Shown here piece after piece: positions 2,972 through 39,042 of a DNA stretch of 39,042 bases. This stretch comes from a virus. Both the position numbers and the translations under genes were made by a program. The notes beneath the pieces are model-generated. The model made no database searches. It was not told the origin of the DNA and was given only the letters and a program-made list of their open reading frames with translations. How positions within the stretch are numbered: the stretch's first letter is position 1; each line of letters opens with the position of its first letter. Location: positions 1 through 39,042 of the IMG/VR virus record IMGVR_UViG_3300026184_000001. One strand, 5' to 3'.

Positions 2972-3808
2972 TCAGGAACCGTTCTTCAGGATCTCCGCGA
3001 CACGGCTCGCCCTCTCGGCGTCCTTCTTCGACAGGCCGAGGGACTCGCGGCGACCGTCGCGGTAGAACCGCCGGACGGTATCGTCGTCGCGGAACAGGTA
3101 GCGGCCGGGGTCGAGGTAGCGGTCGCGCTCCTGCCAGTCGTCGGCGTAGAAGCCCTGGGCGGCCACTCCCAGGTACACGATCGCGTCGGTCGGACTCGCT
3201 CCGGCCCGGAGTAGCTCGCGAGCCCTAGCGCGGATCTTCGACAGGCGGGAGTCGGTCGGTTGCAGGTCGGGGCCTGGGCGGTTGCCGACCCGTTCCTTCC
3301 AGGCGGCCAACGTGTGCTCCCAGACCTCCGAGACGACGTCCTCCAGGGGATTCGACCCGTTCCCCTCGGAAGACCCCAGGAGTTCCCCCTGGAACTCCGA
3401 CGTTTCTTCTCTTACTCCATCTCTATACTCACTCTCTTTACTCTGGGCGACGCTCGTGTCACCCCCCACCCGACGCTCCTGTCGCCCCCCACCCGACACT
3501 TCCGTCGCGTGGGGTGGACGGAAGAAGACCCGCCGCTCAGTCCCCCAGGCGTGCCGCTCGTACTCGACGCGCACGAGTCCGGCGTCCTGGAGGGCGGCGA
3601 GGCGACGTTGGACGGCCCGTTCAGACACGCCCAGGTCGTCGGAGAGGTAGGCGTTCGACGCGAAGGCGAAGCCTCGATCGGTCGAGAGGCCGTGGAGCCG
3701 GCCGGCGAGAACCTTCGCGGAGTCGGCGAGTGTCGGGTGACGGAGGATGTAGGGCGGGATCCATGCCCCGCCGACATGACGGGGATCTGGCGGGCTGTCG
3801 GATGTCAC
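2972..3808 (-). CDS. Winged-helix replication initiation protein
   Basis: The N-terminal 95 residues of this 278-residue protein form a typical winged-helix: AKVLAGRLHGLS, then FASNAYLSDDLGVSERAVQ and RRLAALQDAGLVRVEYE. This is the helix-turn-helix type found at the N terminus of phage replication initiators (O-like or replisome organiser proteins). Residues about 100-150 are a low-complexity linker. A C-terminal domain follows with W-rich and aromatic motifs (FYADDW, YLDPGRYLF). It probably binds the origin and recruits the host or loader helicase. It starts with GTG behind GAGGGG. It is the first gene after a 125-bp gap with two stem-loops, so it may begin its own transcript. Confidence 0.75.
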   Translation of the reverse strand: MTSDSPPDPRHVGGAWIPPYILRHPTLADSAKVLAGRLHGLSTDRGFAFASNAYLSDDLGVSERAVQRRLAALQDAGLVRVEYERHAWGTERRVFFRPPHATEVSGGGRQERRVGGDTSVAQSKESEYRDGVREETSEFQGELLGSSEGNGSNPLEDVVSEVWEHTLAAWKERVGNRPGPDLQPTDSRLSKIRARARELLRAGASPTDAIVYLGVAAQGFYADDWQERDRYLDPGRYLFRDDDTVRRFYRDGRRESLGLSKKDAERASRVAEILKNGS

Positions 3809-3866: not shown

Positions 3867-3908
3867 CCCAGGCTCGCGGCCTGGGCGTATCCCGCGACGT
3901 CTCGCGGG
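3867..3908 (-). promoter_or_regulatory. Two tandem stem-loops upstream of the replication gene
   Basis: The gap between the sulfotransferase and the replication initiator holds two perfect hairpins: CCCAGGC-TCGCG-GCCTGGG (3867-3885) and CCCGCGA-CGTC-TCGCGGG (3891-3908). No U-tract follows either in the transcript, so they are not classic terminators. They could be a leader structure, an RNA processing site or a weak terminator. The first hairpin shares the 14-mer GCCTGGGGAAGCGC with the hairpin after the capsid gene. Confidence 0.6.
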
Positions 3909-3933
3909 ACCCGGACAGGGTTCCGAGTCTACC

Positions 3934-4839
3934 TTAGAGGTCCTCCGGGGCGCAATACCCGAGGGCCTGTGCCGTGGGCTCCAGGCGTTGCCATAGGGCC
4001 TTCACGCGGGAGGGCGGGAGGTCCTCCCTCCAGCGCCCGACGTGCGCGTCCCCGACGACGTTGACCATCGACTCCGACCACGCGATGTCGAGCCGGATGC
4101 ATAGGTCCTTCGTCACGAACTCCGGGTCGTCGACGAGCTTCTCCAGGTGGACGGTCGGGTTCGACTCGTCGAAGTGAGTCAGGACCCGGATCTCGTATTC
4201 ACGGAGGTTCTCGGCCAGGGCGTTCCAGTCGTTCGGCCACCACTTCGGCGCGATCGAGCCCTGGGAGGCGATCACGTCGAGAGGGTGCCGGGCCGCGAAC
4301 ACGAAGGTCGCATCCGGGAACAGTTCGCGGAGCGTCGACACACGAAGGCAGTTCTCGGGCGTGTCCTCGACCCAGGCCCGCACGCGGCGGCCGTAGACGA
4401 AGAAGTCCTCGACGAACTTCGCGAGGCGCTTCCGGATCTCCGGGTAGTCGTTCACGCTCCTGTATCTGGGAGCGATCGGGACCCATCTCGCCGTCGCGCT
4501 CCGGCGGTAGGGGTGATCGAAGGTCCACCCGACCTCGCGGCCCGTCAGGATCGACCGGACGTGGTCGAGGGACTCGTTGATCGCGGCCGACGGCCGGATG
4601 TCCGTCAGCGCGTCCCATCGGTGTTGAAGAAGCGCCAGGAAGCGGTCCCAGGCGATCGTCGCGCGGTAGGGCGTCCAGGCCTTCGGCCGGATCGCCTCCC
4701 ACAGGTCCAGGACCCCGTCCGGCTCGGTCAGGATCCGGAGTTCGTGGGGGAGGACCGCCACGTCGGGCGACTCCCCCACGATCCGCCGGAGGACGGACGT
4801 ACCGGAGCGGCCGAAGCCGCCGATGAAGATCGGTCGCAT
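3934..4839 (-). CDS. PAPS-dependent sulfotransferase
   Basis: The 301-residue product has the two nucleotide-binding elements of sulfotransferases. The 5'-phosphosulfate loop is IFIGGFGRSGTSVLRR at residues 4-19. The 3'-phosphate site is FAARHPLDVIAS at 181-192, with Arg184, Asp188 and Ser192. A late HLEKLVDDPE element (231-240) matches the usual region near the end of the family, and the length is typical. Where many members have EKTP, this one has EDTP (158-161). It should transfer sulfate from PAPS to a hydroxyl or amine; the acceptor cannot be read from the sequence. It has no signal peptide, so it is cytoplasmic. It is coupled to recT by TGATG. A host glycan, lipid, small molecule or nucleic-acid derivative are all possible substrates. 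Confidence 0.88.
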   Translation of the reverse strand: MRPIFIGGFGRSGTSVLRRIVGESPDVAVLPHELRILTEPDGVLDLWEAIRPKAWTPYRATIAWDRFLALLQHRWDALTDIRPSAAINESLDHVRSILTGREVGWTFDHPYRRSATARWVPIAPRYRSVNDYPEIRKRLAKFVEDFFVYGRRVRAWVEDTPENCLRVSTLRELFPDATFVFAARHPLDVIASQGSIAPKWWPNDWNALAENLREYEIRVLTHFDESNPTVHLEKLVDDPEFVTKDLCIRLDIAWSESMVNVVGDAHVGRWREDLPPSRVKALWQRLEPTAQALGYCAPEDL

Positions 4840-6008
4840 CAGTCCCCCCCGTTGACGGGCTCCAGGCTCGCGATCAGGACGGTCAGTTCGCCCCTCGTGA
4901 ACTCGACGTAGGCCTTCGGCTCGTCGAGGTCGAGGATCTCCTGGGCCTTCTCCCCTAGGTCCGCCCACGACCACCCGAGGTCTTCACGGAGCGCGTCCAG
5001 GCGCTCGCGAAGCTCGTCGGTCGACTCGTCCTCGTCCTCCGAGAGGCGGGCGGCTTCCTCCTGGCACTTCGCCTCGGTCCACAGGTCCTCGGGGGAGTTC
5101 ACGAGGCCCCCGCCGGCCTTCCGCATCAGGTAGCGGCCCGCGCCCCTGTGGGCGATCTCCCAGTCGTCGCCGAGCGCCTTCCAGGGGAGGTCGTCGAGGT
5201 CGTCGTCGGGGTCGGGCTCGACCTCCGACTCGGCCTCGGCGAGGCGGCGTTCCAGGGCGCGGCCCTGGGCGTCCGCGTTCGCCTCCAGCGTTTCCTCGGC
5301 GAGCGTTCTCGTCCGTGCCCTGGCGCGCGTCTCGCCGACGACCGTCCCGAAGCCCTGGGCGTGGTCGAAGTCGATCGCGGCCTGGGCTTCCGGCGCGAGG
5401 TCGAGGTACTTCCCGAGCCGCTTCACGACGGTCTTCCGCCGCATCTCGTCCGGGTAGTTCTGCCACGCCGGCGACGGCTTCTTCTTCTCGGCCTGTGCCT
5501 GAATCCGGTCGAGTTCGTCGCGGTCGATCACGTCGAAGACCGTCTCTCCGTTGTCGAGCCACGCGATCGCGTAGGCGTAGGTCGTCTCGCCCCGTCCGTC
5601 GGTCGCCGCCGGCTTGTGATCGAGGTACGGGGTCAGCCCGTACCCGTAGTCGAAGTCGTCCCCGTCCTTCACGACGCGGGCCTCGACCTTCCGGGCGTTC
5701 CCGTGCCGCATCATGAGGCGGGCGATCCCCTGCCACATCTCTTGAAACTCGGCCGTATTACCGTAAGGGATGATCGCGGCCTCGGTCCCGTCCGGCATAA
5801 GCCCGGTCCGGGCCGAGTCCAGGAGGGCGAGGTACAGGGACTCGGTCGAGCATCGCATCAGCTTCTCGTCGTGAACGATCGCGGTCAGCGCGACCCGGAC
5901 GAACCTCTCCGGGTCGATCCTGTGCGGGAGCGCCTTCGCGAACTCCTGGACCTTGCCCTCCAGGGTCCGGGTCAGTTCTCCCCTCCGTGCGGTCAGCGCG
6001 TTCGACAT
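4839..6008 (-). CDS. recT: RecT family single-strand annealing protein
   Basis: The 389-residue protein shows RecT hallmarks: STESLYLALLDSARTGL with PDGTEAAIIPYG at about residues 54-83, EMWQGIARLMMRHG at 90-103, and MRRKTVVKRLGKYL near 190-205. RecT binds single-stranded DNA and anneals it to homologous strands, working with a 5'-3' exonuclease, here the YqaJ gene just upstream. After about residue 230 comes an acidic linker (EPDPDDDLDDL) and a C-terminal extension not needed in classical RecT, perhaps for recruiting partners such as SSB. It overlaps both neighbours as TGATG. Confidence 0.93.
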   Translation of the reverse strand: MSNALTARRGELTRTLEGKVQEFAKALPHRIDPERFVRVALTAIVHDEKLMRCSTESLYLALLDSARTGLMPDGTEAAIIPYGNTAEFQEMWQGIARLMMRHGNARKVEARVVKDGDDFDYGYGLTPYLDHKPAATDGRGETTYAYAIAWLDNGETVFDVIDRDELDRIQAQAEKKKPSPAWQNYPDEMRRKTVVKRLGKYLDLAPEAQAAIDFDHAQGFGTVVGETRARARTRTLAEETLEANADAQGRALERRLAEAESEVEPDPDDDLDDLPWKALGDDWEIAHRGAGRYLMRKAGGGLVNSPEDLWTEAKCQEEAARLSEDEDESTDELRERLDALREDLGWSWADLGEKAQEILDLDEPKAYVEFTRGELTVLIASLEPVNGGD

Positions 6009-6145
6009 CAGTCGTCCTCCGTCTCGTGTTGACAGGTGGGACAGATCAGGCCGTCCCCTTCTTCGCTCCAGTAGTCACGCCCGCACTCCCGGCACTCGTC
6101 GGGCTCCGTCCAGGGCGGGTCGTACTCGTGCGGGATGTTCGGCAT
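6008..6145 (-). CDS. Tiny zinc-ribbon protein (45 aa)
   Basis: This 45-residue product has four cysteines as C18-x2-C21 and C35-x2-C38 with a short WSEEGDGLI hairpin between them, the spacing of a zinc ribbon. It is coupled on both sides by TGATG overlaps, lying exactly between the exonuclease and RecT. That position suggests a small partner of the recombination pair, for example a nucleic-acid or protein-interaction module. No function is known to me. Confidence 0.75.
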   Translation of the reverse strand: MPNIPHEYDPPWTEPDECRECGRDYWSEEGDGLICPTCQHETEDD

Positions 6146-7260
6146 CAGTCGCCCTTCGGGTAGGCCCGGACGTAGGCCGACGGCGCGGACGTCGTGCACA
6201 GGGCCTCGACGTCGAGTGCCAGTTCGCCGGCCAGCGCCTCCACGTCGGAGGGCGAGGCCGGCAGTTCTCCGGCGTGCCCCATCTCGGTCAACCATCGCAC
6301 GAAGGCGTCCCGGTCGATCGGCGCGGCCTCCACGACGCGGGTCTTCGACAGGTAGGACCGGCCCTTCGTCTCGACCCACCTGTACGTCCCGAGGCCGGGG
6401 ACGCGGATCCCCACCTTCCCGATCTCCCGGAGGAACTCGCCCATCTCGTCGCGACGGAGGTCGTACAGTTCCTTCCCCCGCTTCTTCAGGTCGACCGCCT
6501 CGTTCACCTTCTCGGCGAGCGCGCGGGCCTTCGGCGAGTCGAGGTCGATCACGTCGCCGCTCGGGAGGTTCAGGGGCGGGGCGAAGTCCCTCTCCGAAGC
6601 CCAGGCGTCCGGGTCGGGCGGGATGCGCCTCTCGACGTGCTCCGTCCAGAACGTCTCGGCCTTCGCCAGGAGCCACGCCCCCAGGGACTCGTTCGCCAGG
6701 ACGTCGACCGCATGGAGCGGCCCGCTCGACGCCTCCAGCGAGTAGAGGGCGAGGGACCCCCAGGAGTGCCGCCGGACCGCGAGTTCGGTCTGGATCTGAA
6801 TGATGTTTTCCTCGTCCAGACCGCCCTCGACGATCCGGTCGAACTTCGACCCGCGCGGAGCCTTCGCCTCCAGCGTTCCGGGGCCGTCGTGCTCGTGCTC
6901 GTCGTCGGCGAACTGGGTCCCGTCCGTGTGGATCCGGACGTGTGGGAACTCCGGGTGCGTGAAGGCCCGGTTCCGCTCGTGCCGCCCCTGGCGTCCGGTC
7001 CTCCGGAAGAACTCCCGCGCCGCCAGCGGCTCCAGGACGTTCCCCCGGACGAGGTCGATCGGGGTCGCGCCGGCCAACATCTCGTCGCGGATCGCGTCCG
7101 CGTCGATCGGCCGAGTCTTCTCGTGGTAGACGGTCAGGGCGTCGCCCCAGTCGACCGTCCCCAGGATCCGGGGGAGGTCGGACGCGCCGATCCCCTCCTG
7201 GCGGTCACGGAGGAACTCGATCCTCCGGTCGATCTTCCGTTCCATCGCTTCGCTTGCCAC
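6145..7260 (-). CDS. YqaJ-family viral exonuclease (lambda exonuclease fold)
   Basis: Residues 24-34 (IGASDLPRILG) are the signature start of YqaJ recombinases. The nuclease core follows: RGNVLEPLAAREF (72-84), Asp113 in HTDGTQF, E131-x-K133 in LEAKAP, and the Gln-rich helix IIQIQTEL (153-160). This is the PD-(D/E)xK 5'-3' exonuclease that resects double-strand ends and hands ssDNA to RecT. The start is a GTG with an AAGGGGG site; an ATG five codons later has no good site. The C-terminal 140 residues are a helical extension. It forms one operon with the zinc ribbon and recT. Confidence 0.92.
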   Translation of the reverse strand: MASEAMERKIDRRIEFLRDRQEGIGASDLPRILGTVDWGDALTVYHEKTRPIDADAIRDEMLAGATPIDLVRGNVLEPLAAREFFRRTGRQGRHERNRAFTHPEFPHVRIHTDGTQFADDEHEHDGPGTLEAKAPRGSKFDRIVEGGLDEENIIQIQTELAVRRHSWGSLALYSLEASSGPLHAVDVLANESLGAWLLAKAETFWTEHVERRIPPDPDAWASERDFAPPLNLPSGDVIDLDSPKARALAEKVNEAVDLKKRGKELYDLRRDEMGEFLREIGKVGIRVPGLGTYRWVETKGRSYLSKTRVVEAAPIDRDAFVRWLTEMGHAGELPASPSDVEALAGELALDVEALCTTSAPSAYVRAYPKGD

Positions 7261-7896: not shown

Positions 7897-8793
7897 TCAG
7901 GTTCCCAGGTGAATCGTGTCGCCGTCCGCCATGACGCCTCGGGCGCACCCCTGATAGATGTTCCGGGCGCTGTAATTGTCCGAGTCGGCGTAGGGCGTGT
8001 CGTCGAAGTACGCGCTGATCGTCGAGTCCGAGGGATTGTCGTGGAACGTCACCACGCCGGTCCCGTGATCGGTGTCCAGGTAGCCGCCGACGATCAGGTA
8101 GCCTCGCTGTACGGTCGTGTCGGCCACGGTCACGCGGATCGGGCCGCACCCGGAGGACTCGTAGGCGAGGACGGTCGAGTCCTGGACGGCCACGAGCGAG
8201 TCGGCCTGGAGCGCCCACAGGGACGGATTCCCGTACTGATCGGTCACGAGGTCCGGCCGGCCGAGGTCGCCGGCCACGTCGAACGGACTCTCGCGGTCAG
8301 GGAAGCCGATCCCACGGAGGGCGTCGGTCGCCACGCCGGGGTCGACCCAGTACGCGATCGTCGTGTCCACGATCGCCTCGCCCGTCGACTGTTCGACCCA
8401 ACGGACCTCGACGTGCGCCGGTCCGCCCAGGGCCGGGCGCGTCCACGCCCAGGTCCCCGCGACCACGCGGTTCCGGACGGTCCCGTCCTTCGCGGTCTTC
8501 GTCGTGGTCACGAACGGGTCGCCCGCGTGTTCCTCGACGACGTGCCAGTCGACCAACTGATCGGCGACCGGCTTCCCGTCGCGCGTGACCTTCACCACGA
8601 AGTCGGCCGGGAGCGTGTCGGACGGGGCGGCTCGCTGGCCGGTCCCCGAGACGATCGCCAGGGCGGGCGTGCCGACGCTCCCGGTCGGCCCGGTCGGTCC
8701 GCCGCCGCACCCGGACGCGACGGCCGCCAGGGCGGCCAGCGCCCAGATCACGAACACGGTCTTCATCTTCGCCTGCCAGTTCTCGCGGTACAT
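7897..8793 (-). CDS. Secreted lipoprotein with bacterial Ig-like domain
   Basis: The N terminus (KTVFVIWALAALAAVASGC) is a lipoprotein signal with the lipid-accepting Cys29. After a short Gly/Thr/Pro linker comes an Ig-like segment: VSGTGQRAAPSDTLPADFVV, KVTRDGKPVADQLVDWHV. That phrasing is characteristic of Big-type domains in secreted Gemmatimonadota and related bacterial proteins. The C-terminal half is beta-rich with two cysteines and many Asp/Thr/Ser. The start at ATG 8793 has GGAGAGG; an internal ATG at 8766 lacks one. Early expression of an envelope lipoprotein fits superinfection exclusion or receptor blocking, as for T5 Llp; this is inference from context. Confidence 0.8.
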   Translation of the reverse strand: MYRENWQAKMKTVFVIWALAALAAVASGCGGGPTGPTGSVGTPALAIVSGTGQRAAPSDTLPADFVVKVTRDGKPVADQLVDWHVVEEHAGDPFVTTTKTAKDGTVRNRVVAGTWAWTRPALGGPAHVEVRWVEQSTGEAIVDTTIAYWVDPGVATDALRGIGFPDRESPFDVAGDLGRPDLVTDQYGNPSLWALQADSLVAVQDSTVLAYESSGCGPIRVTVADTTVQRGYLIVGGYLDTDHGTGVVTFHDNPSDSTISAYFDDTPYADSDNYSARNIYQGCARGVMADGDTIHLGT

Positions 8794-8882: not shown

Positions 8883-10025
8883 TCAGCCGGCCAGGAGCGC
8901 CTCGCGCTCGTCGGGCGTGGACGTCGCGTAGGTGACGAGGGCGTTCAGCCGCTCGTGCTTCACGCGGTCGAGCTTGCCGTTGTAGGCCGAGCGGATCCGG
9001 CGTTCCTCGTCGCCCGAGATCGCGTCGGGCGCGTGGTCGGTCCACTCGATGAGGGCGTTGTACGCCTCCCAGGCGTTCCGCGCGCCCTCGTGACCCTTCC
9101 CGTGGTCCCACAGGTTCCGGATCGCCTGTCGGCGGTTCAGGGCGCGCTCCAGGGCGGCCTCGGTCCGGCCGCTCGCGTCGCCCTTCTGGATCCGCTTCTC
9201 CAGGTGACGGAACGGGACGACCGGGTCGAGGATCAGCCGGTCGAACGCGGGCTCGGGAAGGTCGGTCCGACGGAGGACCGTCCGGTGTCCGGCGAAGGCG
9301 GCGACCTTCTCGGCGTAGGAGCCGAACAGGATCCGCGACGACGCGCGGACGTTGTCCTCGACGTCGCCCGTGTGCTTCACCTTGATCGTCGTGCCCTCGG
9401 TCGCGTTCAGCGACATCGCGAGCGTGTTCGCGCACACGACCCGGACCGCCGTTTCCTTCAGGACGACCTTCCGCGACCCGTCGTGGTTGTTGGCGATCAG
9501 GCCGTAGGGGACGACCTCGTCCAAGAGCGTCTCGATCTGGGAGAAGTCGACGTGTGCGTCGCGGGCGAACCCGTTCTCCTGGATCCGACGGAGGATCGCC
9601 GGCCGGTCGAACCGGACGAGCATCCAGGCGTCGGCCCCACCACGGAGCGCGCCGGTCGTCTCGATCCGCGCGATTCCGTCCTCCAGGAGAGGCTCGATCA
9701 CGCGGAAGGCGTCGCGGTTCTGGAGGGGCGTGTACACGTTCCCGACGTGACCGAGGACCTTCTGGCGGTCCGTGCGGACGATCAGGTAGGAGTCGGGCGC
9801 TTGCTGGAACATCGGCTCGGAGGGCGACCGCTCCAGGTCACGCCGGCGGTAGTAGGCCGGGACCTTCTCGACCGTGTACCCGACGCCGCCCTTCGCGACG
9901 GCTTCCTCGTAGGTCGCGTCCGCCGGGATCCCGACGCCCGACCTGTGCCACATCGTCTCGGGGCCGCCGACCGCCGCCACGCTGGCCTCGCCCGTCAGTT
10001 CGTTCCGGTCCAGTTCTGCACTCAT
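8883..10025 (-). CDS. DUF932 (phage/plasmid-like) protein
   Basis: The 380-residue product matches the DUF932 family seen in phages and conjugative plasmids: MWHRSGVGIP near the start, VGNVYTPLQNRDAFRVIEPL at about 95-114, then YGLIANNHDGSRKV and RVVCANTLAMSL, which is the most conserved part of the family. Its role is not established; members occur with anti-restriction and single-strand DNA functions. Here it is the first large early gene, alone between two gaps: upstream a cluster of CCGTCTACG-like boxes, downstream a strong hairpin. AAGGGAG precedes the ATG at 10025. It is likely made early and in quantity. Confidence 0.85.
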   Translation of the reverse strand: MSAELDRNELTGEASVAAVGGPETMWHRSGVGIPADATYEEAVAKGGVGYTVEKVPAYYRRRDLERSPSEPMFQQAPDSYLIVRTDRQKVLGHVGNVYTPLQNRDAFRVIEPLLEDGIARIETTGALRGGADAWMLVRFDRPAILRRIQENGFARDAHVDFSQIETLLDEVVPYGLIANNHDGSRKVVLKETAVRVVCANTLAMSLNATEGTTIKVKHTGDVEDNVRASSRILFGSYAEKVAAFAGHRTVLRRTDLPEPAFDRLILDPVVPFRHLEKRIQKGDASGRTEAALERALNRRQAIRNLWDHGKGHEGARNAWEAYNALIEWTDHAPDAISGDEERRIRSAYNGKLDRVKHERLNALVTYATSTPDEREALLAG

Positions 10026-11889: not shown

Positions 11890-12597
11890 CTACTCGGTTC
11901 GTGCGTCGAGCCACGCCCAGGCGAGACGGATCACGCGACCCGTCGGGGGCCGTGAAGCGAGGGCGAGGTTGCACGCCCCCGAACAGACCACGATGGAGTC
12001 GCCGAGCCACCCGAGGGCGGTCAACTGATAGGTCGGCGCGACGCCCACGGGGAAGCCGGCCGAGTCGATCCGCCTCCCGTCCTTGTATGCGCGGACGTCC
12101 CAGGTCGTGTCGCTGGAGAACGTCGAGACGACCCGGCGGAAGGCGACCGAGTCGGCGTCGAGCGTCACGCTGTCGAGCGAGGCGACGAGCGTGTCGACCT
12201 GGACGTCGACGCCCGGAGCGCCGGGGAGGACGATCCTGGGCGGGATGTCGAAGCTCGTGCAGGCATTTGGTCCGGCTCCGGCCGCGTTCTCGGCCCGGGC
12301 GCAGATGAACGCCGAGTACCGGGCGTCCGCTCTCGGCACGTCGAACCCGTACGTGAGCGAGTCCCCCGCCGCCGAGTCCTCGTACACCACGCCGGCGTCG
12401 TTCGAGCCGACCGTCACCACGTAGCTGAACGGGGGCGTCCCGGTCGAGGGTGGGGCGATCGTCACGGTCGCCCGGACCGTGGAGTCGGTCGCCGCCTGGA
12501 GCGTCACGCGCACGCCTGGGACGGCCGGGGCGGCTTTCGCCGGCCGGCATGCCGGGAGCGCGAGCGCCAGGGCAAGAAGGGCGGTCAGTCTACGCAT
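11890..12597 (-). CDS. Lipoprotein with fibronectin/Ig-like beta domain (235 aa)
   Basis: The signal MRRLTALLALALALPAC ends in a clean lipobox, LPAC, with lipidated Cys17. The rest is a beta-rich domain: VRVTLQAATDSTVRATVTI, FSYVVTVGSNDAGVVYED, then strands with Asp/Ser/Thr. This looks like fibronectin III or Ig-like folds of envelope proteins. GGAGG precedes the ATG. It overlaps the short gene upstream by eight bases. In the lysis region an outer-membrane lipoprotein could serve as outer spanin, but it is much longer than usual; alternatively it protects the infected cell from further phage. Confidence 0.78.
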   Translation of the reverse strand: MRRLTALLALALALPACRPAKAAPAVPGVRVTLQAATDSTVRATVTIAPPSTGTPPFSYVVTVGSNDAGVVYEDSAAGDSLTYGFDVPRADARYSAFICARAENAAGAGPNACTSFDIPPRIVLPGAPGVDVQVDTLVASLDSVTLDADSVAFRRVVSTFSSDTTWDVRAYKDGRRIDSAGFPVGVAPTYQLTALGWLGDSIVVCSGACNLALASRPPTGRVIRLAWAWLDARTE

Positions 12598-38647: not shown

Positions 38648-39000
38648 TTCGCCACCCGGATCAGTTGGACGCGCTCGACCTTCCTCTCCTGGGCCGCGCC
38701 GTCCTCGGGGTCGCCCTCGACGAAGGCCTCCGTATGGATCCAGACCGGCGGGTGGAAGCCGGACTGGACGCCCAGGTAGAGCCGTCCGGTCAGGAGGACG
38801 CGGACGCGATCCCAGAACGGGAGGTCCCAGGCCGAGATGAAGACGTTCTTCCCGTCGGGCGTCTCGCCCTTCCAGGCGGGGAGGTCCCCGACCCCCCCGT
38901 GGCCCGTCAGGGTGAAGTTCTGTTCGGGGAACGCGGCCGGGCTCGCCGGGCCGCCGGCCGGAAGCCGGTCGACGACCCAGGCGAGGACCCGCGCGATCAC
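38644..39000 (-). CDS. Phage hypothetical protein (118 aa), starts across the circular join
   Basis: After an N-terminal helix (MIARVLAWVVDRLPAG) there is NVFISAWDLPFWDRVRVLLT followed by GRLYLGVQSGFHPPVWI, a segment I recall from hypothetical proteins of many siphoviruses (..W..R...L..GR..L.V..F.PP.W). It is probably membrane-peripheral. The GTG at 39000 overlaps the stop of the 61-residue gene as GTGA, seen at positions 82-85 of the left copy, which shows the operon crosses the junction. Function unknown. Confidence 0.7.
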   Translation of the reverse strand: MIARVLAWVVDRLPAGGPASPAAFPEQNFTLTGHGGVGDLPAWKGETPDGKNVFISAWDLPFWDRVRVLLTGRLYLGVQSGFHPPVWIHTEAFVEGDPEDGAAQERKVERVQLIRVAK

Positions 39001-39042
39001 GACGCCTCCAGGAGGCGCATCGCCTCGTCGAGGCCCCGCTTC
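38916..39042. repeat. Direct terminal repeat, right copy (circular closure)
   Basis: Exact second copy of the first 127 bases. It holds the start of the 118-residue gene (GTG at 39000) and the last 15 codons of the 61-residue gene that is complete at the left end. Once the two copies are merged, no gene is broken by the ends of the window. Confidence 0.97.

Follow-up and report, generated by a model that had tools for sequence, protein, structure and literature searches.

The gene at positions 3934 to 4839 (minus strand) of the IMG/VR record IMGVR_UViG_3300026184_000001, from an uncultivated bacterial virus, was confirmed by profile, motifs and predicted fold to encode a PAPS-type sulfotransferase, full-length as the original prediction held. 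The window, which is the whole stretch of 39,042 nucleotides analysed here, carries this gene directly behind recT. Our best explanation, put forward tentatively and rated somewhat short of an even chance, is an accessory enzyme that transfers the sulfuryl group of host PAPS onto a host surface glycan, perhaps blocking competing phages.

The coordinates of the open reading frame were exact, and the frame was intact from its ATG start, encoding 301 amino acids with a codon-position GC of 0.66/0.46/0.92, like that of the adjoining phage genes. In the Pfam search, Sulfotransfer_3 (PF13469) matched residues 3-256 and covered the entire profile, with an E value of 6.3e-19 and 69.5 bits, far above chance against the curated cut-off of 27 bits. 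The 5' phosphosulfate-binding loop GFGRSGTS (residues 8-15, codons 4795 to 4818, minus strand) and the 3' phosphate-binding element RHPLDVIAS (residues 184-192, codons 4264 to 4290, minus strand) were both found; the GRSGTS loop, and RHPLDVIAS with Arg184, Asp188 and Ser192, lay at the residues that had been predicted. The loop was conserved when the protein was aligned with six cellular proteins; Ser12, Gly13, Thr14, Arg184 and Ser192 were invariant in this alignment and Arg11 nearly so. No signal sequence was evident in the protein, and a PADLOC search for a defence role returned no match for it.

The AlphaFold model, built from the alignment with the six cellular proteins from five loci, had a mean pLDDT of 76 and a pTM of 0.77 and was weak around residues 100-130. 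Foldseek gave 18 PDB matches below E 0.001, all of them sulfotransferases, with tick and human tyrosylprotein sulfotransferases (TPST) first and a best E value of 5.9e-07. Every match listed by VIA-align was likewise a sulfotransferase: human TPST1 (Z 19.3, rmsd 3.8 Å over 228 residues), the olefin-synthase and CurM sulfotransferases (Z 16), and the heparan-sulfate and cytosolic sulfotransferases (Z about 12-13). The model thus matched a PAPS sulfotransferase fold, and the best match was not another P-loop kinase family, the outcome that would have spoken against the original prediction.

Based on the profile alignment to TPST1 and the homologue alignment, Glu33 (codon 4741 to 4743, minus strand) is the candidate catalytic base, since Glu33-Leu-Arg35 aligned with the TPST motif ETR, in which the Glu is catalytic. 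The catalytic Lys before DP/TP in TPST was absent, and its position was occupied by Asp159 (codon 4363 to 4365, minus strand); Lys or His is usual there in the homologues (E[K/H]TP), and an Ensifer homologue has Asn. As for the basic residues of TPST that bind the peptide, this low-identity alignment kept Arg35 and placed Glu39 at the next position, so that the peptide-binding Arg four residues beyond appears replaced. Judged from these alignments, Asp159 is the main doubt on the predicted catalytic activity.

The gene order was exonuclease, recT, sulfotransferase, a 125-bp gap and a replication-initiator-like gene, all on the minus strand, which agrees with the predicted place between recombination and replication genes. 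The YqaJ/RecE-like exonuclease lay at 6145 to 7260 (Pfam 5.5e-13, phrog_434 4.8e-31), the RecT-like ssDNA annealing protein at 4839 to 6008 (Pfam RecT 4.1e-32, phrog_148 4e-56), and the O-like replication-initiation protein with a winged helix at 2972 to 3808 (Pfam HTH_36 2.9e-07, phrog_270 8.7e-11). The gap after the sulfotransferase gene contained an imperfect inverted repeat (3880 to 3919), not scored as a terminator. The stop codon of recT and the start codon of the sulfotransferase gene overlapped at base 4839 (TGATG), and a G-rich stretch upstream of the ATG could serve as a ribosome-binding site. From the one-base stop/start overlap, translational coupling to recT, as had been proposed, is likely, and we infer early expression of the sulfotransferase.

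The link to recT was not conserved when six recT neighbourhoods in other phages were read. The gene after recT in four annotated phages encoded an SSB, a sliding clamp, a hypothetical protein or a Rha regulator, and no sulfotransferase stood beside recT in the viral records G047 and G027, whose capsids are related to that of this phage. Because different genes fill that place in the neighbourhoods read, the slot behind recT is variable, and the position of the sulfotransferase gene looks like an accessory slot rather than a functional link.

Positions 1-127 and 38916-39042 were identical, forming a direct terminal repeat of 127 bp, which makes it probable that the record is an entire genome, 38,915 bp long, although its database entry gives no completeness value. 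Its genes include those for terminase, Gp13-like capsid, tape-measure and CHAP/endolysin-type proteins. No APS kinase was detected in this apparently complete genome, hence PAPS would have to come from the host, which supports the earlier proposal that the host makes it. The nearest relatives allowed no host assignment: a Methanosarcinales virus for the terminase (30%), a Tunturiibacter phage for the capsid (38%), and Fusobacterium and Arthrobacter phages for RecT. The genome also encoded, on the minus strand, a DUF932 protein (8883-10025; Pfam 2.8e-32, phrog_1221 1.3e-44), a putative phage metallopeptidase (279-959; PF18894, 1.7e-23) and two predicted lipoproteins, at 7897-8766 (lipobox ...VASGC) and 11890-12597 (lipobox ...LPAC), neither with a Pfam family above cut-off. 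The two lipobox proteins are candidate surface or exclusion proteins, and would agree, if weakly, with a phage that modifies the surface of its host.

Sulfotransferases had been said to be seldom carried by phages. They are already known in BFVD, from Synechococcus phage S-SCSM1, uncultured Caudovirales phages and Xanthomonas phage FoX4, and in the literature, where OM43 phage contigs carry them (PMC10580990) and another report exists (PMC8290583); in 2023 the role of phage sulfotransferases was described as remaining unclear (PMC10580990). A capsid scan yielded 80 viral loci, and among the 48 larger records examined, which were distantly capsid-related, a Sulfotransfer_3 match occurred in 2, recT in 3 and both together in none. 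The two sulfotransferase genes lay at other places in the genome. In G008 one unnamed ORF separated the gene from the capsid gene before it, and two phrog_1962 glycosyltransferases (PHROG category "moron, auxiliary metabolic gene and host takeover") came after it within a few genes; this accessory block of a sulfotransferase and two glycosyltransferases spans L103:8345-12266, after the capsid gene and ahead of later genes. In G029 a Sulfotransfer_1-type gene (4.9e-22; L104:8295-8963, minus strand) was located among tail genes, with a DUF6950 gene on one side and a large tail-type protein on the other.

Sequence searches for closer viral kin were negative. A tblastn search of 50,697 phage records gave no relative of the sulfotransferase even at E 10; since BFVD holds phage members, this search misses part of the family. 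Scans of viral contigs with the single sulfotransferase, RecT, terminase and capsid proteins found no relatives, and such scans need short exact peptide patterns and so miss distant kin. Alignment-based scans of viral contigs for the sulfotransferase also found none, nor did a search with a GC-rich DNA pattern encoding GGxGRSGT, which covers part of the possible codons. The protein scored at most 5 bits against the G008 and G029 sulfotransferases, whereas its best cellular match, a protein of a Euryarchaeota MAG, reached 67 bits, which suggests that this gene and those of G008 and G029 were probably acquired separately. A sulfotransferase in a phage is in itself nothing new; this one is divergent and lies in an unusual place.

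The cellular relatives, retrieved by a query to which two artificial motif variants had been added, were distant, with 21-30% identity in alignment A7 and about 23-32% between the phage protein and Sulfotransfer_3 members of polysaccharide clusters in the alignments made. Three phylum samples comprising 789 genomes gave no match surpassing the Euryarchaeota MAG at E 1e-10. Each of the five retrieved loci with a cellular homologue lay in a sugar or glycan cluster, a count uncontrolled for the base rate of the family; the neighbouring genes were named by eye from their sequences. The Euryarchaeota MAG locus (L008) contained genes of DegT-type aminotransferase, oxidoreductase, UTP-glucose-1-phosphate uridylyltransferase and UDP-glucose dehydrogenase types. 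The others had glycosyltransferases with an ABC-export-type permease (L009), a flippase and glycosyltransferases (L010), a glycosyltransferase (L011), or a sugar epimerase and a glycosyltransferase (L012). No glycosyltransferase was found next to the phage gene.

The fold of a sulfotransferase does not reveal its acceptor. Because the five cellular loci and the G008 module hold glycan genes, a glycan acceptor is suggested, by association only. The nearest solved structures are protein-tyrosine enzymes, which counts against the glycan reading and lends some plausibility to a different acceptor, which could be a small molecule, a host signal or a tyrosine residue in a protein of the host or the phage. 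That alternative is possible, though we consider it unlikely: the best structural match and the alignment of Glu33-x-Arg35 with the ETR motif speak for it, but the peptide-binding Arg of TPST appears exchanged for Glu39. Moreover, polyketide-synthase and polysaccharide sulfotransferases have the same fold, so the TPST match points to no single acceptor. Loss of catalysis, or a different role, with the fold kept, would accord with Asp159 in place of the common Lys/His at the catalytic-lysine position of TPST, and with the poorly predicted middle of the model (about 100-130); we hold it to be quite improbable, as the reading frame is unbroken, Glu33 and the residues that bind phosphate are retained, and the Ensifer homologue has Asn at the same position.

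The place behind recT, among recombination and replication genes, could instead point to modification of phage DNA or of a nucleotide precursor, in which a sulfated base would guard the DNA from host nucleases. A passage of PMC10829341 cites Iyer 2013 for sulfotransferases proposed in phage base-modification systems. On the other hand, no thymidylate-synthase-type gene was found in the genome, no base-modifying enzyme of the families searched appeared among the ORFs scanned, and ordinary DNA bases have no alcohol group for sulfation. This explanation is highly improbable, and a nucleic-acid precursor is the least supported of the three roles originally proposed.

We keep to host-surface-glycan sulfation as the preferred reading. 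The sulfotransferase would be a moron-like accessory gene in the slot behind recT, probably co-translated with the recombination genes, and would pass the sulfuryl group from PAPS made by the host to a hydroxyl (or amine) on its acceptor, most likely a sugar or lipid-linked sugar of host surface-glycan synthesis. Sulfation would alter the surface charge and could hinder adsorption of competing phages. The activity, the glycan acceptor and the exclusion of other phages are what we infer together; the fuller version, with early sulfation from a gene coupled to the recombination operon that excludes competitors, is doubtful.

Sulfotransferases recur across phage genomes, and this one belongs to an apparently complete genome; the phage records searched contained no relative that could be recognised by sequence. 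Its position directly behind recT, a gene of known function, makes timing and substrate testable. We know of no described case in which a phage changes the host surface type by sulfate, and if the host surface is indeed sulfated, this would be a new chemistry among the ways in which phages remodel their hosts.

Compared with known systems, the phage sulfotransferases of BFVD have the same fold in tailed phages, at 11-15% identity to this protein in structural alignments. TPST1/2 offer the closest solved fold and have the PAPS loops and the Glu-x-Arg motif in common with it, but identity is about 20%, and a peptide-binding Arg and the catalytic Lys appear lost. Cellular Sulfotransfer_3 members such as that of the Euryarchaeota MAG match over the full length, with the MRPxFIGGxGRSGT start and the PAPS-binding elements; their genes lie in glycan clusters, whereas the phage gene lies behind recT.
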